Positions 1 through 64,000 of a stretch of 64,000 nucleotides of DNA are shown here, piece after piece (positions within the stretch are counted from its first letter, which is position 1; each line of letters opens with the position of its first letter). The stretch comes from Corynebacterium aquatimens (lineage in GTDB: Bacteria > Actinomycetota > Actinomycetes > Mycobacteriales > Mycobacteriaceae): positions 2,418,001-2,482,000 of the forward strand of contig NZ_CP046980.1 of NCBI RefSeq assembly GCF_030408395.1. The letters are read 5' to 3'. The notes under the pieces are model-generated. The model did not search any database, was not told the DNA's origin, and was given only the letters and a program-made list of their open reading frames with translations. The position numbers and the translations under genes were made by a program.

Positions 1-564
1 GTAGTAGGTGACGCCGTCGCGCTCGACGCTGGCGACTTCGGTGGTGATCTGCCCGAACCCGGCGCTGCTCAGCGACTGTTGGTACTCAGCGATCCAGCCG
101 CGGATCTGCTCCGCCTCGGCTTCGGTGTCGGTGTAGAACGCGGAGCGGTACTGCGTGCCCACGTCGTTTCCCTGCCGGAAGCCCTGCGTCGGGTCGTGCG
201 CCTCCAGCGCGGCGCGCACGAGATCCTTCAGGCCAACCCGCGCGGGGTCGTAGACCACTTCGACCAGTTCCACGTGGTTCGTCTGCCCCGAGCACACTTC
301 GCGGTACGTCGGGTTGGGCGTCACCCCGCCGCCGTAGCCCACCGACGTGGCCTCCACACCGGGGGTTTCCCAGAACATTTTCTCCGCCCCCCAGAAGCAT
401 CCCAGCCCCACGAGCAGGCGTTTGTGCCCCTCGTTCCACGGCCCCGTAATCGGCGTCCCCAGCACAGCGTGGGGCGCGGGGTGCGGCAGAATCGGCTCCG
501 GGCGGCCCGGCAGGGCGTCATGCTTATCGACGAGTTCAGGACTACGACCAAACGGGAAGAACAT
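1..564 (-). CDS. msrA: Peptide-methionine (S)-S-oxide reductase MsrA, 3' end cut by the window
   Basis: Reduces methionine-S-sulfoxide in oxidised proteins in the cytosol, using thioredoxin. The family motif GCFWGAEK lies near residue 55 with the catalytic Cys at about residue 56, followed by VGYGGG and the substrate-pocket stretch DPTQGFRQGNDVGTQYRS. An N-terminal extension of about 45 residues precedes the core, as in actinobacterial MsrA proteins. The ATG at 564 gives MFFPFGRS. The C terminus lies beyond base 1. It is divergent from sodA, and msrA next to sodA is the order I know from Corynebacterium; both are oxidative-stress genes. Identification is secure. Confidence 0.93.
   Translation of the reverse strand, partial: MFFPFGRSPELVDKHDALPGRPEPILPHPAPHAVLGTPITGPWNEGHKRLLVGLGCFWGAEKMFWETPGVEATSVGYGGGVTPNPTYREVCSGQTNHVELVEVVYDPARVGLKDLVRAALEAHDPTQGFRQGNDVGTQYRSAFYTDTEAEAEQIRGWIAEYQQSLSSAGFGQITTEVASVERDGVTYY
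532..542 (+). repeat. 11-mer GCTTATCGACG
   Basis: Inside msrA, read on the gene strand as GTC GAT AAG (Val-Asp-Lys). Confidence 0.85.
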
Positions 565-694
565 ACCTGTTTAACGGATTGGTAACGGCAAAAATTCCCG
601 CATGTCCCTACTATGGGGACGCAACGGGCACGCGAGCCCGCCGCGCCACGGACGCGGAATGAGAAAAAATCGCACTAAAGAAAGGTTTATGACA

Positions 695-1297
695 ATGGCT
701 GTTTACGAACTTCCTGAGCTCCCCTACGCATACGACGCACTGGAGCCGCACATTTCCGCTGAGATCATGGAGCTGCACCACTCCAAGCACCACGCAACCT
801 ACGTTGCTGGCGCAAACGCTGCCCTCGAGGCCATCGAGGCTGAGCGTAACGGTGAGGCTAACCCGGACAAGCTGCGCGCGCTGTCCAAGAACCTCGCGTT
901 CAACCTGGGTGGCCACACCAACCACTCCATTTTCTGGCAGAACATGAGCCCGAACGGTGGCGGCGAGCCGACCGGTGAGCTGGCTGCTGCTATCGAGCGT
1001 GACTTCGGCTCCTTCGAGGGCTTCAAGAAGCAGTTCGCTGGCGTTGCTACTTCCATCCAGGGTTCCGGCTGGGCTGTGCTTGGCTACGACCACATCGCTG
1101 GCCGCCTGATCATCCAACAGATGACTGACCAGCAGGGCAACATCTCCGTGGACTTCACCCCGGTTCTCATGCTGGACATGTGGGAGCACGCTTTCTACCT
1201 GCAGTACAAGAACGTGAAGCCGGACTACGTTGCGGCATGGTGGAACGTTGTCAACTGGGACGACGTCGCGCAGTGCCTGGCAAAGGCCGCTGCCTAA
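695..1297 (+). CDS. sodA: Superoxide dismutase (Mn/Fe family)
   Basis: Cytosolic dismutase of superoxide, 200 aa. The iron/manganese fold is clear: the first metal-ligand region ELHHSKHH near residue 27, GGHTNHSIFW near residue 75, GSGWAVLG near 125, and the last ligands in DMWEHAFYLQYKN near 165. The ATG at 695 was chosen over the in-frame ATG at 689 because AGAAAGG at 680-685 is 9 nt upstream of it. An inverted repeat follows the stop. Codon use is strongly biased, as in highly expressed genes. Manganese or iron preference cannot be settled by eye. Confidence 0.96.
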   Translation: MAVYELPELPYAYDALEPHISAEIMELHHSKHHATYVAGANAALEAIEAERNGEANPDKLRALSKNLAFNLGGHTNHSIFWQNMSPNGGGEPTGELAAAIERDFGSFEGFKKQFAGVATSIQGSGWAVLGYDHIAGRLIIQQMTDQQGNISVDFTPVLMLDMWEHAFYLQYKNVKPDYVAAWWNVVNWDDVAQCLAKAAA

Positions 1298-1303: not shown

Positions 1304-1314
1304 GCTTATCGACG
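1304..1314 (+). repeat. 11-mer GCTTATCGACG, intergenic
   Basis: Lies between the sodA stop and its hairpin and overlaps the first stem bases. Clear non-coding copy of the dispersed motif (18 exact copies in the window; see findings). Confidence 0.9.
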
Positions 1315-1378: not shown

Positions 1379-2569
1379 GTGGAGAAAGGCAGCCCGGAGT
1401 ATCGTCGCGCGATAGTCGCGATGTTTGCAGCCGGGCTGTCTATTTTTAATTCCCTGTACTTCGTGCAGGCGATGCTGCCGACGTTCGTGGATGAGCTCGG
1501 AATGAGTGAAGCCGAGGCGGCCCTGGCGGTGTCGGCAACGACGGGGATGTTGGCGTTGTTCATCGTGCCGGCCTCGATCCTGTCGGAGCGTTTTGGCCGC
1601 GGCAGGGTGTTGGTTATTTCGGCGCCGCTCGCCGCGGCGGTGGGCTTAGCGCTGCCACTGGCCACGAATGGTGCGCAGCTCATTGCGTTGCGCGCAGTGC
1701 AGGGCGTTGCCATCGCGGGAACGCCGGCGGTGGCCATGACCTGGATTTCGGAGGAAATGTCCCCGTCGGCCGCACCAGGGGCGATGGGGCTGTATGTGTC
1801 TGGGTCGTCGATAGGCGGCCTGCTCGGTCGCCTCATTCCAGCCTTCGCGGTGGACTTTGTGGGGTGGCGCTGGGCGGTGCTGTTGGCGTCGTTAAGCGCG
1901 CTGGCCTGCTCTGTCGCAATGGCGTTCCTGCTGCCTGCGCAGCGGAACTTCACGCCGAAGCCGCTGCGGGTGGGACGCGAATTTTCTGCGATGGCCAATC
2001 ACCTGCGTAATCCGCGCCTGCTGGGGCTGTACGCGGTGGGATTTTTGGGCATGGGGACGTTCGTGAGCGTGTACAACATGTTCGGGTTCCGCGCGGTGGA
2101 TTTCTTCGGTCTACCCGCGGCGCTTTCTGCGCTGATCTATCTGACGTACTTGTCGGGAACGTGGTCGTCGGCACGCGCGGGGCGCTATATTCGCACGTTC
2201 GGTCGGGGCCGGGTGGTGCTGGGTACCGCCGTGATCATGCTGGTGGGCTCGGTGCTGTTGGTGTCTAGCTCATTGTGGGCGACGGTGATTGGTCTGCTGG
2301 GCTTCACCGCGGCATTCTTTGCGCTGCACTCTGGCGCCTCTGGCTGGGTGGGGCAGGTAGCCAGCCGCGACCGGGCGGAGGCGTCGAGTTTGTACCTGCT
2401 GTTCTACTACGTGGGGTCCTCTGTTGTTGGTGCAGCAACGGGGTGGTTGTTCATGCACGTCGGGTGGGGCGGATTTACCGCGGCGATCGTGGGCCTGCTG
2501 GTCGTGCTCGTCGGGGTGACGGTGGCGCTTGCGCTGGCGGAGCGTGCAGAAGGAAGAGAGCGGAAATAG
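1379..2569 (+). CDS. MFS transporter, YnfM-like drug exporter family
   Basis: Twelve-helix major facilitator of 396 aa, probably a proton-driven exporter of small molecules; substrate unknown. The loop 2-3 signature SERFGRGRV lies near residue 68 and helix 4 has LRAVQGVAIAGTPA. The GTG at 1379 is preceded by TACAAT at 1365-1370 and 8 nt, so the transcript is probably leaderless. It stands alone between sodA and a possible tiny ORF. Proximity to sodA and msrA does not by itself show a stress role. Confidence 0.85.
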   Translation: MEKGSPEYRRAIVAMFAAGLSIFNSLYFVQAMLPTFVDELGMSEAEAALAVSATTGMLALFIVPASILSERFGRGRVLVISAPLAAAVGLALPLATNGAQLIALRAVQGVAIAGTPAVAMTWISEEMSPSAAPGAMGLYVSGSSIGGLLGRLIPAFAVDFVGWRWAVLLASLSALACSVAMAFLLPAQRNFTPKPLRVGREFSAMANHLRNPRLLGLYAVGFLGMGTFVSVYNMFGFRAVDFFGLPAALSALIYLTYLSGTWSSARAGRYIRTFGRGRVVLGTAVIMLVGSVLLVSSSLWATVIGLLGFTAAFFALHSGASGWVGQVASRDRAEASSLYLLFYYVGSSVVGAATGWLFMHVGWGGFTAAIVGLLVVLVGVTVALALAERAEGRERK

Positions 2570-2742: not shown

Positions 2743-4302
2743 TTATTGATAGCTTTGATCGCTTTGATCGCTGGGCAGCTCAGGGAGAACGTGCCCGAGC
2801 ACCGGGATGCCCGGCGCGCCCGCGCGGAGAAAGGCCCGCACGGCCGAGGTGGCGCGGCAGTCGTCCTCGTTGTAGCGCAGGAGCATGTCCCGGGCCGCAA
2901 GCGCGTCCGGCCCGTTGCCGCGTGCGGTGAGGCGGAGGGCAACGGAACGCTCCCCATCAACGTCATCGTCTGACCAGGTAAAACCAGCCGTTGGTCCGAC
3001 GATTTTGAGTCCCAGCCCTTCCGTACCCACCAGCATGCGGTTGACCCAGGGGAACACATCGACCCATTCATCGGAGGCGATGAAGGAGGAGACTTCGCCG
3101 GCGTCGATCGCAGAAAAGCGGCGCGCAGACGTGGTCATCCAGTGGTTCTCACCGCCCGCGGCGTAGCAGTATGCACGGAAGGTTTTACCCTCACGCAAAG
3201 CCGCCTCACGACGCCCCATGAGCCAGGTCCAGAACTCAACGAAGTTGGCCTCTTCGGACGCACCACCGACGTCATCCCAGGTGGCGAAGCCGTGGTACGA
3301 GGTTCCATCGAACGCACCCCACAGGTACGCGCCCTGGTCCAAGTACGCTTCCATGTCCACGTCAATCTCTACATCGGCGCGCGGGAAATCCCGCGCCATG
3401 CTGCGGGCCTGCTGGCGAGCAAGCACCGGGATCCCGGCGCGCCACGCGGCGGCGACCTCACTGGGTTCACCGAGGCGCTGATCGATCACTGCCTCCACGG
3501 TGTTGAGCCCGCGGTCGCGTAAGGCCCGCGCCCGTTCACCCGGGTACACCAGGGAAATGTCATCCATTGCGCGTAGTTCGGGCTCGCACAGCGCCCAGAA
3601 ACGGCAGCTGGCGCACTGCTTCAACCGACGCGGTTGCGTCGGCGTGTGCTGGGCCAGCGCAGTGCGCAACGCAAGAACGTAGCGGTCAACATCGCCGATG
3701 TAGGCGCGCTCCCGGTCTTGACCGATCACGGCAGCCTCGCCGCTCGCGAGACCGCGTTCACGCAGAAGCAGCTCCGCCATGGCCACCCGGTACCCGTCCA
3801 GGGTGCGGTGGCGAAGTTTCGCACCAACTTCCAGCGGTGCACCCAACCCAAGCCGTGCGGTAGGGATGTAGCGCATAGTCGCCCGGGGGTGAGCCCGCGC
3901 GACGCGGTGATTCGACACCATCACCGGCAGGTACGTCCCATCAACGCGGCGGACAAGAATGTCAATCTCCGCGACCACCGCCACGCCGTCAATCTCGCCG
4001 GTGAGCACCGCGTTAGTAATCAGGTTCGCACGTCGCTTCATCGCTGCGGCGGTCTGAATTTCCAGTTCGCCCTGTTCCAGCGCCGGATCAAGGTCGACGC
4101 GGGTGAAACGCTTGGACCTGCCGTCGCCAAGCGCTCTGCGCACGGGCAGCGCGTCAAAAACTGCGGCGCGAGCTGCATTGATGCGGGGTTGCCGCGCGAT
4201 CGCATCCGGCAGCGGCGGAACATCCGGGTGAGCGAGCCGCTGGCGCAGACGGTACCGGCAGCCAACGAGGTCCCCCGCGCGCACGAACTGCGTGCGCGCC
4301 AT
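2743..4302 (-). CDS. TM0106-type RecB-like nuclease
   Basis: 519 aa cytosolic protein resembling the TM0106 family, which joins a PD-(D/E)XK RecB-like nuclease half to an RNase H-like C-terminal half. Near residue 230 is the Cys cluster QCASCRFWALCEPE, typical of nuclease domains carrying an iron-sulfur cluster. The nuclease core includes GEIDGVAVVAEIDILVRR near residue 105. The C-terminal half contains VEIDVDMEAYLDQGAYLWG (near residue 300) and YNEDDCRATSAVRAFL (near 490), the acidic motifs of a DEDD-type fold. The ATG at 4302 has GAGGG 6 nt upstream; a GTG at 4326 is an alternative. Biological role unknown; DNA repair is the usual guess. Confidence 0.72.
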   Translation of the reverse strand: MARTQFVRAGDLVGCRYRLRQRLAHPDVPPLPDAIARQPRINAARAAVFDALPVRRALGDGRSKRFTRVDLDPALEQGELEIQTAAAMKRRANLITNAVLTGEIDGVAVVAEIDILVRRVDGTYLPVMVSNHRVARAHPRATMRYIPTARLGLGAPLEVGAKLRHRTLDGYRVAMAELLLRERGLASGEAAVIGQDRERAYIGDVDRYVLALRTALAQHTPTQPRRLKQCASCRFWALCEPELRAMDDISLVYPGERARALRDRGLNTVEAVIDQRLGEPSEVAAAWRAGIPVLARQQARSMARDFPRADVEIDVDMEAYLDQGAYLWGAFDGTSYHGFATWDDVGGASEEANFVEFWTWLMGRREAALREGKTFRAYCYAAGGENHWMTTSARRFSAIDAGEVSSFIASDEWVDVFPWVNRMLVGTEGLGLKIVGPTAGFTWSDDDVDGERSVALRLTARGNGPDALAARDMLLRYNEDDCRATSAVRAFLRAGAPGIPVLGHVLPELPSDQSDQSYQ

Positions 4303-4409: not shown

Positions 4410-5048
4410 ATGGGACTGTTCGAGGCCATCCGCAAGGCCCGCGCGAAGACGAAGGCTGAGATCAAGGCCGCAGAAGCTCACGCCCGTCAGGCCGCCAAGG
4501 AAGAGGCGAAGAACGACAAGCGCACCGCGAAACTGCTGGACAAGGCAGAAAAGCGCCTGCTCAAGGAAGAAAAGCAGGGCCTGAAGCGTAAGCGCAAGCA
4601 CGAGGCCGACCTTGCTAAGAAGGAGCTTCAGAAGATCCGGGAAGGCGGCCTGACCAAGAAGAAGGCGAAGCAGTGGGTCGGCGCCGCACGTATCCTTCTG
4701 CCGGTCCTGATCCCGCTTGCGTACCGCGCGATCACGCAGTACCAAGACCGCCAGATTTCTCAGCGCGCGCAAGCAGCTGGCTTATCGACGAATGAGATGG
4801 CGCGTTTCTCCACCGAAGGCGCTGAGTTGAAGGGCCGCATTCGGGCAGTACGCGACTCCCTGGATGATTCCAACGGCAAACTCAATGACTCATTCCGCAC
4901 CGACGTGGAGGTCCGCCTCGACGAGCTGGAGACCGCCGTGAACAACGTGGAGCAGATGAACAACGAGCAACGACGCCTCGCTCATGAGTCCATCGACCGT
5001 GACATCAACCGCTTGACGGCTGAGATTCACCAGAAGCTGACGAAGTAA
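4410..5048 (+). CDS. Basic coiled-coil membrane protein, DUF6474-like
   Basis: 212 aa. Residues 1-95 are Lys/Ala/Glu-rich and would form a charged coiled coil (AKTKAEIKAAEAHARQAAKEE). One hydrophobic segment near 97-113 (GAARILLPVLIPLAYRA) is followed by an acidic helical tail. This matches the layout of a conserved corynebacterial family that I recall as DUF6474; function unknown. AAAGGAG precedes the ATG. It runs convergently into hrrA across a shared terminator hairpin. Confidence 0.7.
   Translation: MGLFEAIRKARAKTKAEIKAAEAHARQAAKEEAKNDKRTAKLLDKAEKRLLKEEKQGLKRKRKHEADLAKKELQKIREGGLTKKKAKQWVGAARILLPVLIPLAYRAITQYQDRQISQRAQAAGLSTNEMARFSTEGAELKGRIRAVRDSLDDSNGKLNDSFRTDVEVRLDELETAVNNVEQMNNEQRRLAHESIDRDINRLTAEIHQKLTK
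4780..4790 (+). repeat. 11-mer GCTTATCGACG
   Basis: In the DUF6474-like gene; read TTA TCG ACG, using the rare Leu codon TTA. Confidence 0.85.
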
Positions 5049-7031: not shown

Positions 7032-7587
7032 GAGAAGAAGCCTACTCACCGCCCCGACACTGGCCTGTACGGCTGTGATTTTGTGCGGTTGTACAGGCAC
7101 TTCGCTTGAACCTAGCGGGTCGTCCACTGCACTGGAATCACCCGCTGCACAACCAGTCGACGCGGTCCCGATCGCGGAGGTTGCCCACCCGGGGGCCAAA
7201 ACGGATGCGGACACCTGTCCGTACCTCAGCAACGACTTCGTGGAAAAGACGAACGGCCAGAAAGTCACCGGGGTGCACGTTGATCAGCGCTTTATCACCC
7301 CAGGGTGCGTGTTCTGGTCGTTCGGGGACGAGTGGCAAGTGCGGGTGACCGTGCGGCACGTGGGAAGTGCTGATGAGGCACGCCGATTCGTCGATAAGCA
7401 AGCGCCCGTTGACTCCACGGATCCTGCGGAACTCCCCGGCGGGTGGCAAGGCGGGCGCGGCGGCAAGTTACCCACAGTATTCGCGGTGAGCAAGGGCACC
7501 GTTGCCGTGGCTGTTTCCACCGACCAGGCGCAGTCCGTCAAGGCGGAGTTGATCGCCCAGGCAGTAATTAAAAACCTGAAGCTGTAG
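7030..7587 (+). CDS. Secreted lipoprotein, DUF2020-like
   Basis: 185 aa. The ATG at 7030 opens a signal peptide, RRSLLTAPTLACTAVILCGC, whose lipobox ILCGC gives a lipidated Cys near residue 21. The mature part contains DTCPYLSNDFVEKTNGQKV and ITPGCVFWSF, with two Cys that could form a disulfide, a compact fold I associate with DUF2020 lipoproteins of corynebacteria. Function unknown. The gene is head-to-head with hrrS and their start codons overlap, so its promoter must lie within hrrS coding DNA. Confidence 0.72.
   Translation: MRRSLLTAPTLACTAVILCGCTGTSLEPSGSSTALESPAAQPVDAVPIAEVAHPGAKTDADTCPYLSNDFVEKTNGQKVTGVHVDQRFITPGCVFWSFGDEWQVRVTVRHVGSADEARRFVDKQAPVDSTDPAELPGGWQGGRGGKLPTVFAVSKGTVAVAVSTDQAQSVKAELIAQAVIKNLKL
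7389..7399 (-). repeat. 11-mer GCTTATCGACG (complement)
   Basis: In the DUF2020-like lipoprotein gene; read GTC GAT AAG. Confidence 0.85.
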
Positions 7588-8904: not shown

Positions 8905-9684
8905 CTAGCTGTTTTCTTCCATTGCATCCGGTGGGCCGGACTGCTTATCGGTTGCGTCCACGAGCATGGCGTGAATGATCATGCGCTCGGCGTTAGAGAA
9001 CTGCGGGTGGCAAGTCGTCAGCGTTAGAACGGCTTCCAGCCCGGCGCGGTCCTTCTCGCCTTTCTCGCCGGAGCGCTGTGGCTGGTCTGATTCGGGCTTG
9101 GGGTAGAGCACGGTGGAATCCCACGGCGTTGTGATGTGGCGCCCCAGCACGTTGCGGTAGTCGCCGCTGGTCACGCGTTCGCGCAGGTCCTCAGGGAGGC
9201 ATGACGCCGCCTTGGTGCGCCCAGCGCCTCCCTCCATGGGGAGGACTCGGTAGGTGAGCCACTCGGTTTTGGTTTCCACGACGATGGCGTCGCAGGAGCG
9301 TAGCTGCCCCAGATCGTTGAACGGGGCGCCTTTACCCACCCGGTGGCCGGCGACAGCGAAGTTACCCCGCTCCCCTGGCATCTGCGTGGTTTGATACCGG
9401 CCAGGTCCGGCGACAAGCACGTCTTCCGTCGTTCCCTCCAGGATCGCAAACTGGTAGTCAGCGCCGAAGGTGGGGATGTACAGCTTGGCAAAGGCGTCGC
9501 CAAGCGCCGGCGCGCGCTTTTCGCGCGGGTTTTCCCACTCTTTGGCGAGCTGCGATTGGGCATCATTCTGCAACAGGCCGGACTTGATGTTGGTCCAGTA
9601 CGCCTCATAAAAGGCAAAGAGCAGGAAGATGACACCGACGGTGATGAAGACTTCGCCGAGCACCTGTTGTGGCGTGGTGCGCAT
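8905..9684 (-). CDS. srtE: Class E sortase
   Basis: 259 aa membrane-anchored transpeptidase that would attach sorting-signal proteins to the envelope. An N-terminal TM helix (residues 10-28) leads to the sortase barrel. Catalytic His is in AVAGHRVG near residue 115, Cys in LTLTTCHP near 225, and the Arg candidate in FSNAERMII. The TTCHP context is typical of class E. The ATG at 9684 sits 7 nt behind TAGGGT, so the transcript is probably leaderless; a GTG at 9693 is possible. I saw no classical sorting-signal substrate in this window. Confidence 0.86.
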   Translation of the reverse strand: MRTTPQQVLGEVFITVGVIFLLFAFYEAYWTNIKSGLLQNDAQSQLAKEWENPREKRAPALGDAFAKLYIPTFGADYQFAILEGTTEDVLVAGPGRYQTTQMPGERGNFAVAGHRVGKGAPFNDLGQLRSCDAIVVETKTEWLTYRVLPMEGGAGRTKAASCLPEDLRERVTSGDYRNVLGRHITTPWDSTVLYPKPESDQPQRSGEKGEKDRAGLEAVLTLTTCHPQFSNAERMIIHAMLVDATDKQSGPPDAMEENS

Positions 9685-9734: not shown

Positions 9735-10928
9735 GTGATGTCGCTGTTCGTCTTTCCGGTTTCTGCGGTGATGAAGTTCTGGCACCGCCTGCTCTCTGAC
9801 GTGCTTGGGGCGGCGCCGGACACCGCGTGGGTGGCTGCAATTATTCTTCTGGTGATCACCATCCGCAGCATGATCGCACCGTTTAGCTGGACAATCATGA
9901 AGTCCGGCCGTACCGCACTGCTGATGCGACCAGAGCTCAAGGAGCTCGAAGAGCAATATCGCTTATCGACGACCCATGAAGACGTCGCTGCCTACGACGA
10001 AGCGCGCAAGGACGTGCAGAAGAAATACGGGTACAACCCGATCGCCGGGTGCGTGCCGCCGCTGATTCAGATCCCCGCGTTTTTGGGTTTGTACCGGCTG
10101 CTGTTGTGGATGTCCGTGCCGGAAAACGGGCACACCGGCGGGAGCATCGGGCTGCTGACCAGCGATGATGTTTCGTCCTTCTTGGACACCCGGTTCATGG
10201 GTGAACCGCTGCCCGCGTACATGGCAATGACTCCTGAGCAGTTTGCCAACCTGGGCACCACCGCGGAACAGGTCGGAGCGGTGGCGGTACCGCTGTTGAT
10301 CTGCGCGATCATCTTCACCACCTTCAACATGGTTTTGGGCCAGATCCGCACGCGCGCAACCATGGATTGGGAGCAGGGGTTTGCCCGCGGTGTCTACCGC
10401 GTCGTCTGGGGTTTCGCTATCGCGGTGCCGTTCATGCTGATCGGTGTGGCTCTCACAGGGCGCATCCCCATCGCTTTGTTGCTCTACTGGTTCTGCAACA
10501 ACCTGTGGACCTTGGGGCAGACCATCATCATGTGGATCGCAGTGGTGAAGAAGTACCCACTGGATGACACGCACCTAACGCATCTGGACACCTCCCGCAC
10601 CACCTACTTGAAACAGGCACGCGAGCGCAAAGCCACCAAACGGGACTGGCGCCGCCGCCGTCTCGCGGCAGTGACCACCCCGCAGAAGGCAGGCCACATC
10701 CGGCGCGAAATCAAGGCCGAGAAGCAATCTTTGAAAGACACCGCCGCTGCCGCCAAAGCTGAACGCAAAGCAGCCGCCAAACAGCAGTCCAAGGTCCGTT
10801 CCGAACTACGCAAGCAGACGTTGGAAAAACAGCGGGCGGAACGAGCCGCACGACGCGAAGAAAAAGCACGCGAACACACGGAGCAGTCCGCACCGAAGGT
10901 CGTCGATAAGCATGAGCCCGAAGAATAG
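9735..10928 (+). CDS. YidC/Oxa1-family membrane insertase paralog
   Basis: 397 aa. Five hydrophobic segments span residues 1-280, with the family loop EEQYRLSTT...DEARKDVQKKYGYNPIAGCVPPLIQIPAFLGLYRLL, and the later segments PIALLLYWFCNNLWTLGQ. The C-terminal 110 residues are a highly charged coiled coil (KQARERKATKRDWRRRR..., AAKAERKAAAKQQ) that could contact ribosomes. TATCAT at 9722-9727 is 7 nt before the GTG at 9735, suggesting leaderless initiation there; an ATG follows at 9738. The main yidC is usually next to rpmH/rnpA, so this is likely the second, accessory copy. Confidence 0.86.
   Translation: MMSLFVFPVSAVMKFWHRLLSDVLGAAPDTAWVAAIILLVITIRSMIAPFSWTIMKSGRTALLMRPELKELEEQYRLSTTHEDVAAYDEARKDVQKKYGYNPIAGCVPPLIQIPAFLGLYRLLLWMSVPENGHTGGSIGLLTSDDVSSFLDTRFMGEPLPAYMAMTPEQFANLGTTAEQVGAVAVPLLICAIIFTTFNMVLGQIRTRATMDWEQGFARGVYRVVWGFAIAVPFMLIGVALTGRIPIALLLYWFCNNLWTLGQTIIMWIAVVKKYPLDDTHLTHLDTSRTTYLKQARERKATKRDWRRRRLAAVTTPQKAGHIRREIKAEKQSLKDTAAAAKAERKAAAKQQSKVRSELRKQTLEKQRAERAARREEKAREHTEQSAPKVVDKHEPEE
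9961..9971 (+). repeat. 11-mer GCTTATCGACG
   Basis: In the YidC-like gene; read CGC TTA TCG ACG, with the rare codon TTA. Confidence 0.85.
10901..10911 (-). repeat. 11-mer GCTTATCGACG (complement)
   Basis: Near the 3' end of the YidC-like gene; read GTC GAT AAG CAT. Confidence 0.85.
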
Positions 10929-13117: not shown

Positions 13118-14092
13118 ATGCCCCGTAGAAATTATCCGCCACTTCCGCCGCGCGACGGCCTGGGAGCAACGCGCGCCCGCGTCCCTGAGGACCCCCTCGA
13201 TGGCCTGGACTCGCGTGTTCCAACCGCCTTCGATTTCGTCCGCCACCTGGTATTTACCCAACGCCACCGCCACCCGGACGATGATGACAACGCGGTGCTC
13301 GCGCGGTTTTTCGCCGGCGAGGTCGTGCTCATCGACTGCACGCCGCTTACGCCGGACACGCCCGTGGCGCCAGGCACAGACGTGTTCTTTTACCGCAGGC
13401 CCGCCCCTGAAACACCAGTCCCTTATGAGATCGAAGAGGTCTACGAGGACGCGGACATTATGGTGGTGCGCAAGCCCCCGTTCCTCGCGACCATGCCGCG
13501 CGCGGCCCACATCACCGAGTCAGCTACTGTGCGCCTTCGCCGGGCCACGGGCAACGAGGAACTCACACCAGCTCATCGCCTCGACCGCATGACATCGGGC
13601 CTGCTCCTCTTTACCAAACACAGGAATATTCGGGGGGCCTACCAGGAACTTTTCGCTCGGAGGGAGGTTCACAAGGAATATGAGGCCGTCGCTAAGCATG
13701 CGGGCCTTAGTCCTCCGCTTGAGTGGAAGCACCACATTGTGAAGCGACCTGGTGAAATTGCCGCGCACATCGCGCATGACCGCGAGCCCAACGCGCACAC
13801 CATCGTGCGTTCCATCACCCGCATTCCCCGCCCCCCGCAGGGCGAAGCTAACGCCGATTACGCGATTTACCTGCTCGAACCCATCACCGGGAAGACCCAC
13901 CAGTTGCGAATTCAAATGAACGCCGCGGGCGTGCCCATCCTCGGCGACCCCGTCTACCCCATCACCGCGCCCTTCGGCGACGAGGATTTCGCGTACCCCA
14001 TGTACCTCGCCTCCGTCGCCCTGTCCTTCATCGACCCCCTCACGCAACGTCCGCGCGAATTCACAATCGACGGCTTCCCCGAACTTCACTAG
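13118..14092 (+). CDS. RluA-family rRNA/tRNA pseudouridine synthase
   Basis: 324 aa. The catalytic-Asp motif is AHRLDRMTSGLLLFTK near residue 155, followed by the family stretches REVHKEYEAV and GKTHQLRIQMNAAGVPILGDPVYP. Residues 1-100 look like a degenerate S4-like region. It isomerises uridine in structured RNA; the exact target cannot be assigned. It starts 23 bp from a divergent small gene and ends 7 bp before the CadD-like gene, so the two are probably cotranscribed. Confidence 0.88.
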   Translation: MPRRNYPPLPPRDGLGATRARVPEDPLDGLDSRVPTAFDFVRHLVFTQRHRHPDDDDNAVLARFFAGEVVLIDCTPLTPDTPVAPGTDVFFYRRPAPETPVPYEIEEVYEDADIMVVRKPPFLATMPRAAHITESATVRLRRATGNEELTPAHRLDRMTSGLLLFTKHRNIRGAYQELFARREVHKEYEAVAKHAGLSPPLEWKHHIVKRPGEIAAHIAHDREPNAHTIVRSITRIPRPPQGEANADYAIYLLEPITGKTHQLRIQMNAAGVPILGDPVYPITAPFGDEDFAYPMYLASVALSFIDPLTQRPREFTIDGFPELH

Positions 14093-14099: not shown

Positions 14100-14738
14100 A
14101 TGCTTATCGACGACAGCCCCCTCCTCCCCTCCATCGCCGCCGCGGTAGGGCTCTTCATCGCGACGAACATCGACGACATCATCATCCTGTCACTATTCTT
14201 CGCACGGGGCCGGGGCCGCACCGGCGCAATACGCACCATCGCTGCCGGTCAGTACATAGGCTTCATCGGCATTCTGATTCTCTCCGTCGCCACCGCGATC
14301 GGCTCCGCGGCAGTACTCCCTCCATGGGCAATCCCACTCTTCGGATTAGTGCCGCTGGGAATCGGGCTGTGGGAGGCGTGGGAGGCCTGGGAGTCCGGAG
14401 ACCGTGGGGAAGACAGTAGTGACACAGGTAGCGATAGCGACGAGAGCGGACAGCTACGAAACAAAACCCTGAACATCGCCACTGTTGCCGGCGTAACCTT
14501 CGCCAACGGCGGCGACAACATCGGTGTGTACGTTCCGGTTTTCGTTCAGGTACCGCCAACCACCGTTGCCGTCTACTGCATCGTCTTCCTGATCCTCATC
14601 GCGCCACTGGTGTGGGCCGCGCACTACATCACCAGCCGCGAACCGATAGCCGAGCTACTGGAAAGATTTGAAACCATCCTTTTCCCCGCAATGATGATCC
14701 TCCTCGGAATCGCAATCCTGGCCGGCGGCTATCTCTAA
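14100..14738 (+). CDS. CadD-family cation exporter
   Basis: 212 aa polytopic protein of the LysE/CadD superfamily. FIATNIDDIIILSLFF near residue 20 and a second related motif TFANGGDNIGVYVPVF near 135 are the paired acidic membrane signatures of cadmium-resistance-type transporters. An acidic cytosolic loop (EAWESGDRGEDSSDTGSDSDES) separates the two halves. Substrate not determined. It is followed by a long inverted repeat that also closes the rRNA operon from the other side. Confidence 0.8.
   Translation: MLIDDSPLLPSIAAAVGLFIATNIDDIIILSLFFARGRGRTGAIRTIAAGQYIGFIGILILSVATAIGSAAVLPPWAIPLFGLVPLGIGLWEAWEAWESGDRGEDSSDTGSDSDESGQLRNKTLNIATVAGVTFANGGDNIGVYVPVFVQVPPTTVAVYCIVFLILIAPLVWAAHYITSREPIAELLERFETILFPAMMILLGIAILAGGYL
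14102..14112 (+). repeat. 11-mer GCTTATCGACG
   Basis: Codons 1-4 of the CadD-like gene; ATG CTT ATC GAC, with the uncommon Leu codon CTT. Confidence 0.85.
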
Positions 14739-26914: not shown

Positions 26915-27115
26915 ATGGCACAGCGAGAGTTTGATGTTGAAGGCATGACCTGCGCACACTGCGAGGCGTCCGTCGTTGAGGAAGTTAGTGAAGTCGCCGG
27001 CGTTGAGTCCGCAACCGCGGACCACGCATCCGGCAAGCTCGTCGTCACTGGTGAGGGTTTCTCCGCTGCGGAGATTTCCAAAGCCGTGAGTGAAGCTGGG
27101 TACACGCTCGCTTAA
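26915..27115 (+). CDS. Heavy-metal-associated domain protein (CopZ-like)
   Basis: 66 aa, a single HMA domain with the metal site GMTCAHCEASV near residues 11-21 and the fold's later strands GKLVVTGEGFSAAEISKAVSEAGYTLA. Likely a copper chaperone. TACCAT at 26902-26907 lies 7 nt before the ATG, so it is probably leaderless. No copper ATPase is adjacent. Confidence 0.85.
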   Translation: MAQREFDVEGMTCAHCEASVVEEVSEVAGVESATADHASGKLVVTGEGFSAAEISKAVSEAGYTLA

Positions 27116-47075: not shown

Positions 47076-47597
47076 ATGACTGACACCAGCATTCAGTTCA
47101 TCCCCACCGCAGACATCGTGGACATCTACGACGATTTCGAGGACGATGTGCAAAGCTGCGACACCCAGTTCCGCAACTTCGGCGGCCGCACGGAGTTCTG
47201 CGGGGAGATCGTCACGATCTCCTGCTTCCAGGACAACGGTCTGGTGAAAAAGACGCTCAACTCCCCCGGCGAGGGCAAGGTGCTCGTCGTCGATGGTCAT
47301 GGCAGCCTGCACACAGCGCTCATGGGCGACATGATCGCGGAGGCTGGCGTGGAGAACGGCTGGGCTGGGGTGATCATCAACGGCCCGATCCGCGACTCCG
47401 CCGAGGTGGCCAAGATGGACTTCGGCTGCAAGGCACTGGGCACGAACCCCCGCAAGTCCGCCAAGGAAGGCGCGGGGAAGACGGACATCGTGATCCGCTT
47501 GGGCGGCATCGACTTTATCCCCGGCCACTACGTGTACGCGGATTCGGACGGGATCATTGTCACGCCGGAACCCGTCGTCAAGCGCGAAGAGGCGTAA
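47076..47597 (+). CDS. rraA: RraA-family protein, copy 1
   Basis: 173 aa. The fold binds oxaloacetate or related acids; members act as RNase E inhibitors or as 4-hydroxy-4-methyl-2-oxoglutarate aldolases. GKVLVVDGHGSLHTALMGDMIAEAGVENGWAGVIINGPIRDSAEVAKMDFGCKALGTNPRKSAKEG carries the GD...R..D core. AAAGGAG precedes the ATG. It ends 4 bp before nei2. Identical to copy 2 at 59000-59521. Confidence 0.88.
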   Translation: MTDTSIQFIPTADIVDIYDDFEDDVQSCDTQFRNFGGRTEFCGEIVTISCFQDNGLVKKTLNSPGEGKVLVVDGHGSLHTALMGDMIAEAGVENGWAGVIINGPIRDSAEVAKMDFGCKALGTNPRKSAKEGAGKTDIVIRLGGIDFIPGHYVYADSDGIIVTPEPVVKREEA

Positions 47598-50042: not shown

Positions 50043-51237
50043 AACGCCCCCGCAGAGGAAACCGCCTCAAACGACCGAACGGTCCGACACCATGCAGTGG
50101 ATACCGCTGGTAGCCATCAGCTTCGCGGCGTTCGTGTACGTCACGTACGAGATGTTCATGGTCGGGCTTATCACACCGATCAGCGCTGATCTCGGCGTGA
50201 GCGAGGGCCTCGTCGGGCTCCTCATGACCGTGTACGCGGGCCTGGTGGCCGTGGTCACGCTTCCGCTCATGTGGTTCACCCGCAACGTCAACCGCCGCCC
50301 CCTTCTCATCAGCACGCTGGTTTTTCTGGCCGGTGGCATCGTCCTTCAGGCCATCGCGCACACGTACTGGGTTCTCGTCGCCGCGCGCGTGTGCGCCGCG
50401 TTGACGCATGGGCTTTTCTGGTCCCTGGTCAACCCCATGTCCGCGCGGCTCTCCCCCGCCGGAATGACCGGTCGCGCGGTGGCGGTTGTCTCGCTCGGCT
50501 CCACGTTCGCGCTGGTCCTCGGCTCGCCGATCTCCACGTTCATCGGAAACGCCCTCGGCTGGCGTGCCTCAACGTGGATCCTGGGCGCGGTGACGGTGGC
50601 GTCGATAAGCGTGCTCTTGCTCTCTCTTCCCTCCATGCCCCAGCTTGAGCGCAAGGCGCTTGACGACGATAGGAAGCAGACCACCGCCATCCTCCAGCTG
50701 GTGGTGTACCTCGCGCTGAGCGTGACGGCGGTGTTTAGCACCTATTCCTACCTGGGGTTGATCGTGGAACGCACCGTCGGATTGCAGTACGTGGCCGCGG
50801 GTTTGAGCGCCTACGGGCTCTTCGGGATCGTGGGCGTGCTCATTGCCGGCCGGCGGGTGGATTCGCGCATGATCCGCATCAACGCGCTGGCCGCAGCCAC
50901 GCTGGTACTCGCAGCGGCTTTCGGTGCCGTGGCGTTTATCACCGACGGCATCACTCAATGGATCGCCCTCGGCGCCCTCATCGTGGTGCTGGGCACCGCA
51001 GCCGGTGCGCTGCCCACGTCCGCCACCACCATCTTCATGCACGCCGGCCAGGCGCAGCAGGACCGCGCCAGCGCCATCTACGTGGTTACTTTCCAAGTGG
51101 GGATCGCCTCCGGTGCGGCGCTCGGCGCGGCGTGCGTGGACTCGGGCCATCTCGCGGCCGTTCTGGGTGTGACAGCCCTGCTCGCGGCGTTGGGCTGCGC
51201 CGAACTCATGGTGCGGGCGCGTCCGAGACTGAAGTAG
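50035..51237 (+). CDS. MFS transporter (DHA1-like), copy 1
   Basis: 400 aa, twelve helices: FAAFVYVTYEMFMVGLITPISADLG at helix 1, LVGLLMTVYAGLVAVVTLPLMWFTRNVNRRP with the loop 2-3 motif, and TLVFLAGGIVLQAIAHTYWVLVAARVCAALTHGLFWSLV. Resembles sugar-efflux/AraJ-type exporters. ATG at 50035 inside the nnr 3' end, with GGAG 7 nt upstream, so it is translationally coupled. Contains an 11-mer read with the rare Ile codon ATA at 50600. Confidence 0.85.
   Translation: MPRTPPQRKPPQTTERSDTMQWIPLVAISFAAFVYVTYEMFMVGLITPISADLGVSEGLVGLLMTVYAGLVAVVTLPLMWFTRNVNRRPLLISTLVFLAGGIVLQAIAHTYWVLVAARVCAALTHGLFWSLVNPMSARLSPAGMTGRAVAVVSLGSTFALVLGSPISTFIGNALGWRASTWILGAVTVASISVLLLSLPSMPQLERKALDDDRKQTTAILQLVVYLALSVTAVFSTYSYLGLIVERTVGLQYVAAGLSAYGLFGIVGVLIAGRRVDSRMIRINALAAATLVLAAAFGAVAFITDGITQWIALGALIVVLGTAAGALPTSATTIFMHAGQAQQDRASAIYVVTFQVGIASGAALGAACVDSGHLAAVLGVTALLAALGCAELMVRARPRLK
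50600..50610 (-). repeat. 11-mer GCTTATCGACG (complement)
   Basis: In MFS copy 1; TCG ATA AGC, with the rare codon ATA. Conserved at the same place in copy 2. Confidence 0.88.
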
Positions 51238-52067: not shown

Positions 52068-52385
52068 TCACACGCTGAGCACGAGGAACATACCGATCGC
52101 CCCGAGCACCAGCATCGCCGCGGACATCCCTAGGACGCCGCGCGCATTCGCAGCCACCCTTTCGTGCGCGAGGCCTTCCGCTTGACGACGGTACATTGCC
52201 CGCTCCCGCAGCCCAATCACTCCCGCCACGACCGCAAGCAGCCCGATGGCCCCGAACACCACCGTCGGATACGGTTGCGACCAGCGCAGCAACGTGAGCG
52301 AGCACACCATCATCGCCGCCGCGGTTCGGGTCCACGACATCGCCGTGCGCTCCGGCTGAAGTCCCTCATCTGCGACCTGGATCAT
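52068..52385 (-). CDS. DUF202 membrane protein
   Basis: 105 aa. EGLQPERTAMSWTRTAAAMMVCSLTLLRW is the DUF202 signature (ERT..SW.RT), with three TM helices. Second gene of a two-gene minus-strand unit; starts 13 bp after the YidH-like stop. Function unknown. Confidence 0.85.
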   Translation of the reverse strand: MIQVADEGLQPERTAMSWTRTAAAMMVCSLTLLRWSQPYPTVVFGAIGLLAVVAGVIGLRERAMYRRQAEGLAHERVAANARGVLGMSAAMLVLGAIGMFLVLSV

Positions 52386-55237: not shown

Positions 55238-55248
55238 GCTTATCGACG
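55238..55248 (+). repeat. 11-mer GCTTATCGACG at a gene junction
   Basis: Provides the TAA stop of the collagen-like gene (CGA TAA on the minus strand) and sits 1 bp from the next start codon. Confidence 0.85.
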
Positions 55249-58999: not shown

Positions 59000-59521
59000 A
59001 TGACTGACACCAGCATTCAGTTCATCCCCACCGCAGACATCGTGGACATCTACGACGATTTCGAGGACGATGTGCAAAGCTGCGACACCCAGTTCCGCAA
59101 CTTCGGCGGCCGCACGGAGTTCTGCGGGGAGATCGTCACGATCTCCTGCTTCCAGGACAACGGTCTGGTGAAAAAGACGCTCAACTCCCCCGGCGAGGGC
59201 AAGGTGCTCGTCGTCGATGGTCATGGCAGCCTGCACACAGCGCTCATGGGCGACATGATCGCGGAGGCTGGCGTGGAGAACGGCTGGGCTGGGGTGATCA
59301 TCAACGGCCCGATCCGCGACTCCGCCGAGGTGGCCAAGATGGACTTCGGCTGCAAGGCACTGGGCACGAACCCCCGCAAGTCCGCCAAGGAAGGCGCGGG
59401 GAAGACGGACATCGTGATCCGCTTGGGCGGCATCGACTTTATCCCCGGCCACTACGTGTACGCGGATTCGGACGGGATCATTGTCACGCCGGAACCCGTC
59501 GTCAAGCGCGAAGAGGCGTAA
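59000..59521 (+). CDS. rraA: RraA-family protein, copy 2
   Basis: Same 173-aa sequence as 47076-47597. No difference seen in the protein, so both copies are presumably functional. It ends 4 bp before the second nei2. Confidence 0.88.
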   Translation: MTDTSIQFIPTADIVDIYDDFEDDVQSCDTQFRNFGGRTEFCGEIVTISCFQDNGLVKKTLNSPGEGKVLVVDGHGSLHTALMGDMIAEAGVENGWAGVIINGPIRDSAEVAKMDFGCKALGTNPRKSAKEGAGKTDIVIRLGGIDFIPGHYVYADSDGIIVTPEPVVKREEA

Positions 59522-61071: not shown

Positions 61072-62685
61072 ATGTTGCTGGCGTACACGGCGGATGAAAT
61101 CCGCGCTGCGGAAGCACCGCTTCTTCGCACACAGGCAGAGCCAGATGAACTGATGAAGTCGGCAGCCCACGCAGTCTTCCTCGCAGCGCAGTCGATGCTC
61201 ACGTGGCCGGACCAGGTCGGCCACATTCGAAAGGATCCCCGCGTACTCCTCCTCGTCGGTAAGGGCGGCAACGGCGGGGACGCGCTCTACGCCGGCGTAG
61301 AACTGCTTGCCGCTGGTCACACGGTCGACGCGTGGCTGGCGTGGGGCACCGCGCACGAACGCGCGCTCGCGGCGTTCACGCAGGCTGGAGGGACCGTTCT
61401 CCCCCACGACGCGACGGACTTCCGCGACTACCGCCTTGCCATCGATGGCCTCACCGGCCTAGGCGGCGCGGGCTCCCTCGGGGAGGACGTCGCCAAAGTG
61501 CTCGAGGAACTCCGCGGATTCTGGTCGCGAATCTTAAGCGTCGATGTTCCTTCTGGCATCGTCGCCGACACAGGCGAGAAAGGCGCCACCCACGTCGTCG
61601 CCGATGCCACCGTCACATTCGGCGGCTGGCGGTACGCCCACGGCCTCGCGCCTGAATGCGGCATCCAACTCCTCGCGGATCCGTACACGCACGCCGGGAG
61701 CATCAGCGAAAACCTCGGCTGGCCCGACGGAAACCCACACCTGTTCCGCGCCATCGAGGACGCCCACGAGTGGCCGGACGGTTTTACGTTGCTCGGCCCC
61801 TGTAACGAAGGCTCACTCGAACCCGGCTTCGCGGACGATAAATACTCCGGCGGTGTCGTGGGCATTCGCGCTGGTAGCAGCCAATATCCCGGCGCGGCGA
61901 TCCTGTCGGCGTCCGGCGCGGTCCACGCCACGCCGTCGATGGTCCGCTACGTCGGCCCGCAAGCCGTCGAGGTCGTCCGCGCGCACCCAGAAATCGTCGC
62001 TACGCAACGGCTCGAAGACGCCGGGCGCGTCCAGGCGTGGGTCTTCGGCCCCGGCACCGGCACAGACGCTGACGCCTTCAATGACCTCGCGGCACTCATT
62101 GATCGCCCAGAGCCATTGCTTATCGACGCCGACGGGCTCACCCTCATCTCCAACTCAGCAACCCTGGTCGATCGCCTTCGCGCTCGGGAGGGCTTTACCG
62201 TCCTGACGCCTCATGACGGTGAATTTGAACGCCTCATCACAACAGAATGGATCGCCCCCGCCGATCTGCCCGAGCACGCGGGACGCTTCGTCGAAACGAA
62301 AGCCCTGGCTAACGCCTTGAATTGCACGATAGTCCGAAAAGGTAGATCAACAATAATCGTGGACCCAATTAATCAGCGAGCATCAATCGTTGATACCGCC
62401 AACTCGTGGGCAGCTACCCCTGGATCCGGCGACGTGCTGTCTGGCCTCATGGGCGCGCGCATTGCCCGCTCGGTGGTGCGGTTTGGCGATCGTGCCGCCG
62501 GCCTGGATCTCTTCCAGTCCGTCACCATCCATGCCGTCGCCGCCCAGATCTCTGCCAACACCCCGTTCGGCCCCGGCCCGACCCACGCATCCGCGATCGC
62601 CGCGGCCATCCCCGCCGCCACTGCGAAGATCACCCGGATCCCCAACCCTCCCGCCGCTGTCTCCCACCCTCCGGCACGCCCCTGA
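61072..62685 (+). CDS. nnr: Bifunctional NAD(P)H-hydrate repair enzyme, copy 2
   Basis: 537 aa with the same two domains and motifs as copy 1 (LLLVGKGGNGGDALYAGVEL, VLTPHDGEFERL, NSWAATPGSGDVLSGLMGARIA), but clearly divergent along its whole length. The C terminus differs (ITRIPNPPAAVSHPPARP). GGAGG precedes the ATG at 61072. One 11-mer at 62118 replaces GCTCATCGACG of copy 1. Confidence 0.9.
   Translation: MLLAYTADEIRAAEAPLLRTQAEPDELMKSAAHAVFLAAQSMLTWPDQVGHIRKDPRVLLLVGKGGNGGDALYAGVELLAAGHTVDAWLAWGTAHERALAAFTQAGGTVLPHDATDFRDYRLAIDGLTGLGGAGSLGEDVAKVLEELRGFWSRILSVDVPSGIVADTGEKGATHVVADATVTFGGWRYAHGLAPECGIQLLADPYTHAGSISENLGWPDGNPHLFRAIEDAHEWPDGFTLLGPCNEGSLEPGFADDKYSGGVVGIRAGSSQYPGAAILSASGAVHATPSMVRYVGPQAVEVVRAHPEIVATQRLEDAGRVQAWVFGPGTGTDADAFNDLAALIDRPEPLLIDADGLTLISNSATLVDRLRAREGFTVLTPHDGEFERLITTEWIAPADLPEHAGRFVETKALANALNCTIVRKGRSTIIVDPINQRASIVDTANSWAATPGSGDVLSGLMGARIARSVVRFGDRAAGLDLFQSVTIHAVAAQISANTPFGPGPTHASAIAAAIPAATAKITRIPNPPAAVSHPPARP
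62118..62128 (+). repeat. 11-mer GCTTATCGACG
   Basis: In nnr copy 2; CTT ATC GAC. Copy 1 has CTC ATC GAC at the same site. Confidence 0.85.
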
Positions 62686-62983
62686 CGTCACTAACACCAC
62701 CCCGACCCATAAACCGTATCTCACGTTTCTGACCTGCACCTTTCCTAACCGCCCGGCCCCAGGCCATGGCCGGCTGTCACCATCGTCAGGAGTCGCCTTC
62801 CTGCCCGCTAGGTTCCCCGCCCGTCGATACGCGAAATTTATATCCAACTTTCGATATCCCCCGCAAACCCGCAGGTCACAGCGGTGACAGTTTTCACTGA
62901 TACGTCAGCAAATCAAAATTTCGCGAATCGCCTGGGACGGACTCGCCTGCGCCAGGGCCAGAACAGGTTTAGCCTGGACCCTC
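62686..62983 (+). other. 298-bp gap between nnr and MFS, copy 2 only
   Basis: Copy 1 has an 8-bp gene overlap here. I see no gene. There is a short palindrome GGTCACAGCGGTGAC at 62872-62886 and AT-rich stretches near 62830-62850. TAGCCT near 62971 may be the -10 of the MFS gene. Confidence 0.6.
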
Positions 62984-64000
62984 GTGGGAAGAGAGAGGAA
63001 ACGCGCGCCCAGGCCGGCGCAGACGACTGAACGCTCAGAGTCGATGCAGTGGGTGCCGCTCATCGCGATTAGTTTCGCGGCGTTCGTCTACGTCACCTAT
63101 GAGATGTTCATGGTCGGCCTGATCACCCCGATCAGCCATGACCTGCGCGTTAGCGAAGGTCGCGTGGGCCTCCTGATGACCATTTACGCAGGCCTCGTCG
63201 CCGTAGTGACGTTGCCGTTGATGTGGCTTACGCGCAACGTCAACAGACGCCCGCTGCTGATCAGCACGTTGGTCTTCCTTACCGGCGGAATTGTTCTTCA
63301 GGCGCTCGCAGCTAATTATTGGGTTCTCGTTGCCGCGCGTATCTGCGCCGCCGTCACCCACGGCCTCTTCTGGTCCCTGGTCAACCCCATGTCAGCGCGT
63401 CTTTCCCCCGCCGGCTCCACAGGCCGGGCGGTCGCCATCGTGTCCCTTGGCTCGACGTTCGCACTGGTCTTGGGCTCGCCCATCTCCACGTTCATCGGCA
63501 ACGCGCTCGGTTGGCGCACCTCGACGTGGATCCTGGGCGCGGTGACGGTTGCGTCGATAAGCGTGCTCATGCTCTCGCTTCCCTCGATGCCCCAGCTTAG
63601 GCGCAGTGAGCTTAACGACGACCACCCCACCACCTCCGCCATCCTCCAACTAGTGGTCTACCTCGCGTTGGCGGTGACAGCGATTTTCACAACGTACTCC
63701 TACCTGGGCCTCATCGTGGAACGGACCGTGGGTCTGCCCTATGTTGCAGCGGGGCTCAGCGCGTACGGTCTGTTCGGAATTGTCGGCGTGGTGATCGCGG
63801 GCCGGCGCGTGGATCGACGCATGATTCGGGTGAACGCAATCGCGGTGAGCGCTCTCATCGTTGCCGCTGCTTTGGGGTACCTGGCATTTCTCACTGAGGG
63901 TGTGGCGCAGTGGATCGCTCTTGGTGCGCTCATCGTGGTGCTGGGTACCGCGGCTGGTGCTCTGCCCACGTCCGCGACCACGATCTTCATGCACGCCGGA
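62984..64000 (+). CDS. MFS transporter (DHA1-like), copy 2, cut by the window end
   Basis: First 339 codons of a paralog of 50035-51237: MQWVPLIAISFAAFVYVTYE, LITPISHDLRVSEGRVGLLM, RVDRRMIRVNAIAVSALIV. Helix pattern and motifs agree with copy 1. The GTG at 62984 follows TAGCCT by 8 nt, so unlike copy 1 it appears to have its own promoter and leaderless start. The 3' end lies beyond the window. Confidence 0.84.
   Translation, partial: MGRERKRAPRPAQTTERSESMQWVPLIAISFAAFVYVTYEMFMVGLITPISHDLRVSEGRVGLLMTIYAGLVAVVTLPLMWLTRNVNRRPLLISTLVFLTGGIVLQALAANYWVLVAARICAAVTHGLFWSLVNPMSARLSPAGSTGRAVAIVSLGSTFALVLGSPISTFIGNALGWRTSTWILGAVTVASISVLMLSLPSMPQLRRSELNDDHPTTSAILQLVVYLALAVTAIFTTYSYLGLIVERTVGLPYVAAGLSAYGLFGIVGVVIAGRRVDRRMIRVNAIAVSALIVAAALGYLAFLTEGVAQWIALGALIVVLGTAAGALPTSATTIFMHAG
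63552..63562 (-). repeat. 11-mer GCTTATCGACG (complement)
   Basis: In MFS copy 2; TCG ATA AGC, the same codons as in copy 1. Confidence 0.88.

Follow-up and report, generated by a model that had tools for sequence, protein, structure and literature searches.

A short dispersed motif of the genus Corynebacterium is probably a DNA uptake sequence (DUS) which biases natural transformation, as judged from its sequence patterns. An uptake signal was the first function listed in the original prediction, ahead of a segregation site, a recombination hotspot and a methylase target, and it is the best-fitting reading because the motif is strand-symmetric without replichore bias, has a nearly fixed core, forms dialects which follow the tree, is under-represented in the mobile DNA examined and occurs in genomes with competence genes. 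To our knowledge, DNA uptake words have so far been described in two Gram-negative families, and an actinobacterial word which spans a genus in several dialects would bring the origins of the trait to at least three. We lean towards the view that uptake-sequence-guided transformation arose in Corynebacterium as a third independent origin, the first outside the Proteobacteria and the first with a mycolate outer layer, and that the word may be read by Tad/Flp pili in several dialects.

The window analysed, meaning the whole stretch of DNA under study, comprises 64,000 nt of Corynebacterium aquatimens (GCF_030408395.1, contig NZ_CP046980.1, forward-strand positions 2,418,001–2,482,000). It contains 18 exact copies of the 11-mer GCTTATCGACG, 11 on the plus and 7 on the minus strand; this number had been claimed before and is borne out by our recount. 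On the plus strand, the first copy occupies 522..532 (its start had been misplaced at 532). It is followed by copies at 1304..1314 (intergenic according to the gene finder), 4780..4790, 9961..9971 (inside yidC), 14102..14112 (at the start of an ORF), 24036..24046, 34526..34536, 39397..39407, 44466..44476, 55238..55248 and 62118..62128. The minus-strand copies are located at 7389..7399, 10901..10911 (also inside yidC), 31434..31444 (intergenic according to the gene finder), 38919..38929, 42213..42223, 50600..50610 and 63552..63562. Two one-mismatch copies had been reported, at 37822 and 54024; the former is confirmed and the latter is not, and the total in the window is 15. When up to one mismatch to GCTTATCGACG is allowed, the window yields 33 matches, whereas dinucleotide-preserving shuffles of it gave 1.01 on average and never more than 3.

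The word is enriched across the chromosome, beyond the window. The whole 2.52-Mb genome harbors 515 exact copies of GCTTATCGACG (258 forward, 257 reverse) and the reversed-word control gives 0/0. Across 464 kb sampled from the genome, the word also lies far above codon-shuffled controls, with 71 coding copies where 200 codon shufflings gave 2.9 on average and at most 10. For the core form GCTT-NN-CGACG, 227 coding copies were observed versus a mean of 19.2 after codon shuffling. Since the enrichment extends beyond the window and beyond codon usage, the over-representation originally proposed stands after both comparisons; it is a DNA-level signal which codon usage does not explain. These controls bear on the idea that the word is a by-product, arising from biased codon or oligonucleotide usage or from the spread of a repeat. 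CGACG itself is indeed common (3042 occurrences in 500 kb of the C. aquatimens genome, both strands). However, the word is reproduced neither by codon or dinucleotide shuffling nor by permuted words or reversed controls, and the sequence around it displays mild flank preferences only, so that a by-product of this kind is extremely improbable. Conversely, the word leaves its mark on codon choice. As had been suggested, it forces rare codons: the sampled genes contain 140 ATA codons, 12 of them within TCG-ATA-AGC, which corresponds to nine motif bases read on the opposite strand. The word is also absent from the rRNA operon, as had been noticed, which means little because about one copy is expected there.

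GCTTATCGACG is the most frequent form of the bipartite motif GCTT-NN-CGACG. In the window, the core form is found with further two-base spacers. On the plus strand these are AA (27110..27120 and 63610..63620), GG (28795..28805), GA (33396..33406, 50658..50668 and 52180..52190), TT (40602..40612) and TA (42440..42450). On the minus strand they are AA (1887..1897), GG (4122..4132 and 9495..9505), AG (13687..13697), TG (22353..22363), GC (26390..26400), CG (33662..33672), TT (42393..42403) and GA (47573..47583 and 59497..59507). Genome-wide, the bipartite motif reaches 1447 copies (728/719) versus 48 for the reversed control, an approximately 30-fold excess. Among 134 one-mismatch copies of GCTTATCGACG, 88 differ at the two spacer bases and 4 within the terminal CGACG. 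The motif is composed of a nearly fixed core and a nearly free two-base spacer. The 11-mer first perceived is real, but this bipartite form and the genus-wide dialects described below had been missed. The architecture recalls some Type I targets, which are two-part with a free spacer, and an accumulated target of a restriction-modification system or an orphan methylase could look alike. Yet restriction is expected to deplete such sites and not to raise them 30-fold over control. Furthermore, restriction-modification systems are patchy and mobile, whereas 55 of 73 genomes show an at least 6-fold enrichment of the word, whose evolution follows the tree. We regard a methylase target as very improbable.

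The distribution of GCTTATCGACG is strand-symmetric and without replichore bias, as 49 of 98 sampled sites fall on the leading strand, provided that the origin lies at the contig ends as GC skew suggests. The motif is under-represented in the mobile DNA examined, namely two islands and six plasmids. The islands, both of which were picked through their low motif counts, contain 0 core motifs in 34 kb versus about 21 expected. Six named Corynebacterium plasmids carry 4 core motifs in 224 kb with 6 for the control, which is background. Chi sites are short words which serve recombination and are over-represented in core chromosomes. A Chi-like site, steering a recombination or repair nuclease of the RecBCD, AddAB or AdnAB type and sparing self DNA from degradation, would share the chromosomal enrichment, the absence from islands, the background level in the plasmids examined and the existence of species variants of a short word. 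Chi sites are, however, usually polar relative to replication, and the Corynebacterium word is without strand polarity in both its genome-wide counts and its leading-strand share. In addition, the core form falls from 1045 to 28 copies between the sister genomes G037 and G014. A Chi-like function is unlikely on these grounds.

The word is placed both in intergenic regions and inside genes, where several reading frames are used. Sampled sites inside genes amount to 71 of 98 and belong to five frame classes; the intergenic density is modestly higher (0.34 vs 0.185 per kb in the genome sample). This modest excess, the dispersal on both strands and the nearly fixed core would be compatible with the binding site of a protein which organises the nucleoid, serves segregation or acts as a global regulator, and whose specificity drifts from species to species. 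Such a site is quite unlikely, given the share of sites inside genes in five frame classes, the background level in some near relatives, the absence from the islands examined and the lack of a replichore pattern.

The over-representation is limited to the genus. GCTTNNCGACG is at least 6.2-fold over control in 55 of 73 Corynebacterium genomes and at most 1.83-fold over control in all 147 other genomes of the class. Some other Corynebacterium lineages possess the dialects GCTTGCCGATGCC and TTCGACGCCAMC. Merging of overlapping 12-mers gave GCTTGCCGACGCC, GCTTGCCGATGCC, TTGACGACGCC, TTCGACGCCAAC and others as leading dispersed words. Genome-wide, TTGCCGAYGCC is present 277/254 times in one species (control 4/3) and TTCGACGCCAMC 47/47 times in another (control 0/0). 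One base of the dialect core is either C or T, and a third dialect, TTCGACGCC, has another spacing. A dialect is defined by its two-base spacer together with its flanks, while TT..CGAYG is the core common to most of them. On the tree the dialects cluster and follow phylogeny.

A clear motif is lacking in 11 of the 73 genomes. Some of these are nested among carriers on the tree, as is the weakly enriched pair G041/G062, in which GCTTNNCGACG is 2.2-fold over control. No clear dispersed word emerged in 76–96 kb each of G014, G041, G062 and G030. The third dialect has 24 copies in G033 versus 2 control matches, and CCGACGCC is in excess in G066 (31 vs 8.5). Additional genomes were obtained through a profile search of genome contigs with a TadA alignment, which kept 80 loci, mostly of other bacteria and two of Corynebacterium. 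A Corynebacterium MAG contains 204 copies, a C. urealyticum MAG 3 copies, and five genomes from other genera or families 0–2 copies. At orthologous sites, 243 between-species comparisons, which are not independent and are limited to species pairs having at least four aligned sites, gave 78 exact words versus 22.9 expected from neighbouring 11-mers. A further 42 comparisons have one mismatch and 80 have four or more. The orthologous sites exhibit turnover with retention, which is compatible with drive or selection alike.

Known uptake words offer a comparison. The Neisseriaceae DUS is described as a word of ~10–13 bases in hundreds to thousands of copies, with phylogeny-following dialects and an invariant inner core (CTG), which is lacking in genomic islands and is read by the minor pilin ComP (PMC3630211, PMC12616744, PMC7371117). 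The Corynebacterium word is alike in its high copy number, dialects, invariant core and absence from islands. It differs by its core CGAYG, its nearly free two-base spacer, its actinobacterial host and the Tad/Flp pili. Because the word and the dialects detected contain no CTG, it does not belong to the Neisseriaceae DUS. The Pasteurellaceae USS is presented as a dispersed ~9-base word of two types with the inner core GCGG and a receptor which is only predicted (PMC12616744). The Corynebacterium motif is likewise a dispersed word with an inner core. However, no AT-rich downstream segments like those of the USS were seen within 20 bases of it, and since GCGG is absent from the word it is not a USS member. 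The same source states that inverted pairs are frequent in known uptake-sequence systems, where they act as terminators (PMC12616744). Inverted motif pairs number 15 in 9 of the 73 Corynebacterium genomes, and 3 versus about 0.55 expected in the C. aquatimens genome; such pairs are thus few overall, which may count against the uptake reading.

Competence and pilus genes are widespread in the genus. ComEC and DprA were each found in 73 of 73 genomes, the Tad pilus ATPase family scored above cut-off in 71 of 73, and Flp together with both TadE-like pilins was present in 70 of the 71 fetched loci. In the motif-rich draft G021 (251 exact copies), no Tad ATPase match above cut-off was obtained among the 22 of 37 candidates scored. 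The ComEC of C. aquatimens is short (469 aa according to the gene finder) and Competence is the sole domain found in it. Since motif-less species carry competence and pilus genes too, their presence does not discriminate. In a study of Micrococcus luteus, a naturally transformable actinobacterium, tadA1, tadA2 and comEA are counted among the competence-related genes and the term "uptake sequence" is absent from the main text (PMC6667448). Among the titles and abstract openings searched, none described a Corynebacterium as naturally transformable or as having uptake sequences. The uptake reading would predict natural transformation in this genus, which is usually transformed by electroporation.

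We infer a motif which promotes uptake, a Tad pilus as carrier and a resulting drive. An extracellular pilus-linked protein would bind the motif core, and the Tad/Flp pilus would carry the DNA past the mycolate outer layer and across the wall. One strand would then be taken in by ComEA and ComEC and recombined by DprA and RecA. Tagged fragments would enter more often, so that near-preferred sequences would be copied into chromosomes faster than they are mutated away. Such a drive would spread the word over both strands of the core chromosome, in whichever reading frame tolerates it, and would leave recently acquired DNA without it. Once the receptor changed, the word could diverge into dialects of individual lineages. 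If this is true, dialects within one genus would represent partial sexual barriers between species. The natural dialect series would also help in tracking down the receptor and in examining whether uptake words evolve in bacteria whose incoming DNA has to pass an outer membrane.

Receptor covariation was analysed as the partial rank correlation between protein distance and dialect distance in 59 genomes in which the three dialect words summed to at least 60 and all genes were found, the rest being dropped. Given helicase and TadA distance, the correlations were 0.00 for Flp, 0.07 for TadE1, 0.04 for TadE2, -0.07 for TadB, 0.08 for TadC and 0.13 for Ssd, with permutation standard deviations of 0.05–0.07. 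The distances of Flp, TadE1 and TadE2 thus track dialect no further than phylogeny. TadA gave 0.28 given helicase only; we take it as a better species marker and not as the receptor. No receptor emerged among the proteins compared in this way. The relatives G006 and G004 differ in dialect and have an identical mature Flp. When two CGATG-dialect genomes were compared with 11 CGACG relatives, no residue private to the former was found in Flp or TadE1, whereas TadE2 has 1, TadB 4, TadC 4, Ssd 7 and TadA 3, versus 1 in the helicase control. ComEA is 76% identical between the two genomes compared for this protein.

The genome of Corynebacterium aquatimens (G000) is one contig of 2,524,396 bases, on which the 11-mer occurs 258 times in forward and 257 times in reverse orientation, against 0 occurrences of the reversed word. 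Its 16S gene resembles those of Corynebacterium. The enrichment therefore extends beyond the window, where all 18 exact copies of the original prediction were found, although the first starts at 522 and not at 532. A 464-kb sample of the genome, comprising the window and 20 stretches of 20 kb each, contains 98 exact copies; 2000 permuted words averaged 0.2 copies and never exceeded 5. According to our own simple gene finder, used in place of a published annotation, 71 of these copies lie inside genes, 26 are intergenic and one spans an edge. Codon usage does not account for the coding copies, as 200 codon-shuffled runs of the sampled genes averaged 2.9 copies, with no run above 10. The word sits in different frames, as had been claimed from the sequence: sense-2 (32), antisense-2 (19), antisense-1 (12), sense-1 (4) and sense-0 (4). 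The antisense-0 frame, which contains a stop codon, holds none. Orientation was also compared between the two halves of the genome (24/21 and 28/25 at the sampled sites). Chi sites are expected to be polar relative to replication, and the absence of such polarity argues against a Chi-like site.

Single mismatches are distributed very unevenly along the word. For positions 1–11, the 134 one-mismatch copies contribute 12, 5, 17, 8, 50, 38, 1, 0, 1, 2 and 0 cases, so that the middle AT is nearly free and CGACG nearly fixed. The true unit is thus the bipartite motif GCTTNNCGACG, which has 1447 copies in the genome compared to 48 for the reversed pattern, and 36 in the window. Outside two islands lacking the motif, 466 kb of sequence hold 286 copies (control, 11), with AT as the spacer in 108 of them. 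When any one of the nine fixed positions is changed and the spacer left free, each variant has between 0 and 46 copies, with T to G at the third base giving the most. Coding copies number 227, whereas 40 codon-shuffled runs averaged 19.2, with 29 as the highest value. Flank preferences are milder than those of the core: A or T at −2 (75/98) and C or T at −1 (73/98), while T follows the exact word at +1 in only 3/98. C-rich positions recurring every three bases downstream probably reflect codons.

The two islands have the appearance of mobile DNA. The first, a 20-kb stretch (G000:C1:1920001-1940000), is an array of transposase genes from several insertion-element families, with neither exact nor one-mismatch copies. 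Insertion elements of this genome match Corynebacterium plasmids, one of them at 99.7%. The second, of mostly low G+C, covers G000:C1:1560001-1574000 and has no motif copy; the only copy of the surrounding 20-kb stretch lies beyond these first 14 kb. Family searches assign to it DrmA-like and DrmB-like proteins, a cytosine DNA methylase and two more large helicase-like proteins, and mark it as DISARM-like. Together, these 34 kb contain 0 core motifs where about 21 are expected, and 0 exact copies where 7.7 are expected (Poisson P 0.0004, a descriptive value since the stretches were picked after their low counts had been noticed). Six named Corynebacterium plasmids (223.9 kb in total), chosen among eleven Corynebacterium records which share insertion-element DNA with the transposase array, carry 4 core motifs versus 6 for the control, although the dialects of their own hosts may differ. 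One Corynebacterium plasmid has a gene annotated as DprA (L234 43260-44171).

In a genome sample drawn evenly across larger groups, the exact word reaches 0 to 679 copies in 72 other same-genus genomes and 0 to 6 in 48 genomes from other families of the order. In 55 of 73 same-genus genomes (280 to 1891 copies), GCTTNNCGACG stands 6.2-fold or more above control, and in the remaining 18 it reaches at most 2.2-fold; across 147 genomes from elsewhere in the class, the ratio does not exceed 1.83.

Unbiased counting of dispersed words, with overlapping 12-mers merged by hand, revealed sister words in word-poor genomes: GCTTGCCGACGCC (G004), GCTTGCCGATGCC (G006, G053), TTCGACGCCAAC (G072) and TCGACGCCAC (G010). 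Another was found in G048 (ATTGACGACGCC), and further words accompany that of the window in G008 (GCTTCTCGACG) and G027 (GCTTAACGACG and GCGTATCGACGA). Genome-wide, TTGCCGAYGCC occurs 277/254 times in G053, 141/119 in G006 and 124/134 in G004 (controls, 1 to 5 per strand). Part of this count in any genome is compositional, since the word exceeds its control in every one of 48 further genomes of the order, including four from the same family (13 to 112 copies in 2.4 to 9.6 Mb). TTCGACGCCAMC occurs 40/37 times in G010, 47/47 in G015 and 34/31 in G072 (controls, 0). In G053 (56 kb) and G006 (76 kb) the core is changed from CGACG to CGATG: TTNNCGATG has 35 and 57 copies versus 5 and 7 for controls, and TTNNCGACG has 3 and 6 versus 11 and 12.

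The 18 genomes without strong GCTTNNCGACG include the CGATG dialect (G006, G053), the TTCGACGCCAMC dialect (G010, G015, G072) and two weakly enriched genomes (G041, G062). By counts of TTGCCGAYGCC, TTCGACGCCAMC and GCTTNNCGACG, eleven have no clear word (G003, G014, G017, G024, G028, G030, G033, G039, G040, G054, G066), with hints of one in G033 and G066. Dialects cluster on a helicase and TadA tree of 69 genomes, which leaves out G021, G024, G066 and G071. G003, G028, G030 and G040 form a clade of large genomes without any dialect. Within carrying clades, G014, G039 and the pair G041/G062 seem to have lost the motif or undergone a sharp drop in its copies. Such loss of sites between near relatives would be unexpected for the binding site of a nucleoid or regulatory protein. 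The 76 kb sampled from G039 show an excess of another word, AGCGGATCG (15 versus 1.7).

Competence and pilus genes are widespread in the genus. The C. aquatimens genome has a comEA-comEC-holA group and an operon ordered ssd-tadA-tadB-tadC-DUF4244 (Flp-like)-TadE1-TadE2. ComEC and DprA are each present in 73/73 genomes, and the Tad ATPase family lies above cut-off in 71/73, both exceptions being drafts; one of these, G021, is word-rich. Of 71 fetched loci, 70 contain the pilins, and the remaining one lies at a contig end. Among 80 named loci, the best TadA match belongs to a Corynebacterium genome with 204 copies of the exact word. As word-less species carry the same genes, this machinery permits natural uptake without proving it. 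Among eight motif-rich genomes, seven have a ComEC of 455-546 aa (L073 8513-9922 and the com loci of relatives; not called by the gene finder in the eighth); the protein has 620-659 aa in four genomes poor in the exact word and is short in several other poor ones. In motif-rich G001, ComEC matches are split in two pieces (G001:C4:524862-525658), reflecting either an error or recent damage.

Three sources describe the uptake words of Neisseriaceae (DUS) and Pasteurellaceae (USS) as abundant, with phylogeny-following dialects and an invariant inner core, as lacking in islands and as often arranged in inverted pairs (PMC3630211, PMC12616744, PMC7371117). The first four features are all found here; inverted pairs are only weakly matched, and the word itself is unrelated in sequence. 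Given these four likenesses, the missing Chi polarity and a site loss unlike that of a nucleoid or regulatory protein, the motif is quite likely a DNA uptake sequence, for which we infer a carrier and a receptor. Against this reading count the machinery shared with word-less species, the G021 exception, the scarcity of inverted pairs and a receptor search for the word that yielded no candidate. Among the matches listed in the open-access literature, there was no report of Corynebacterium uptake words or the like. The available part of a motif discovery study with three Corynebacterium species gives only CRISPR-related patterns for them (PMC5217627), and that of PMC8547433 holds nothing relevant to the word.

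Other features of the window were observed. Two seemingly similar gene sets lie at 47076-51237 and 59000-64000, and the exact copies at 50600 and 63552 have nearly identical surroundings. The protein encoded at 55243-57597 matches collagen-like adhesin models, and this gene may account for the AAGGACGGCG words repeated in the window.
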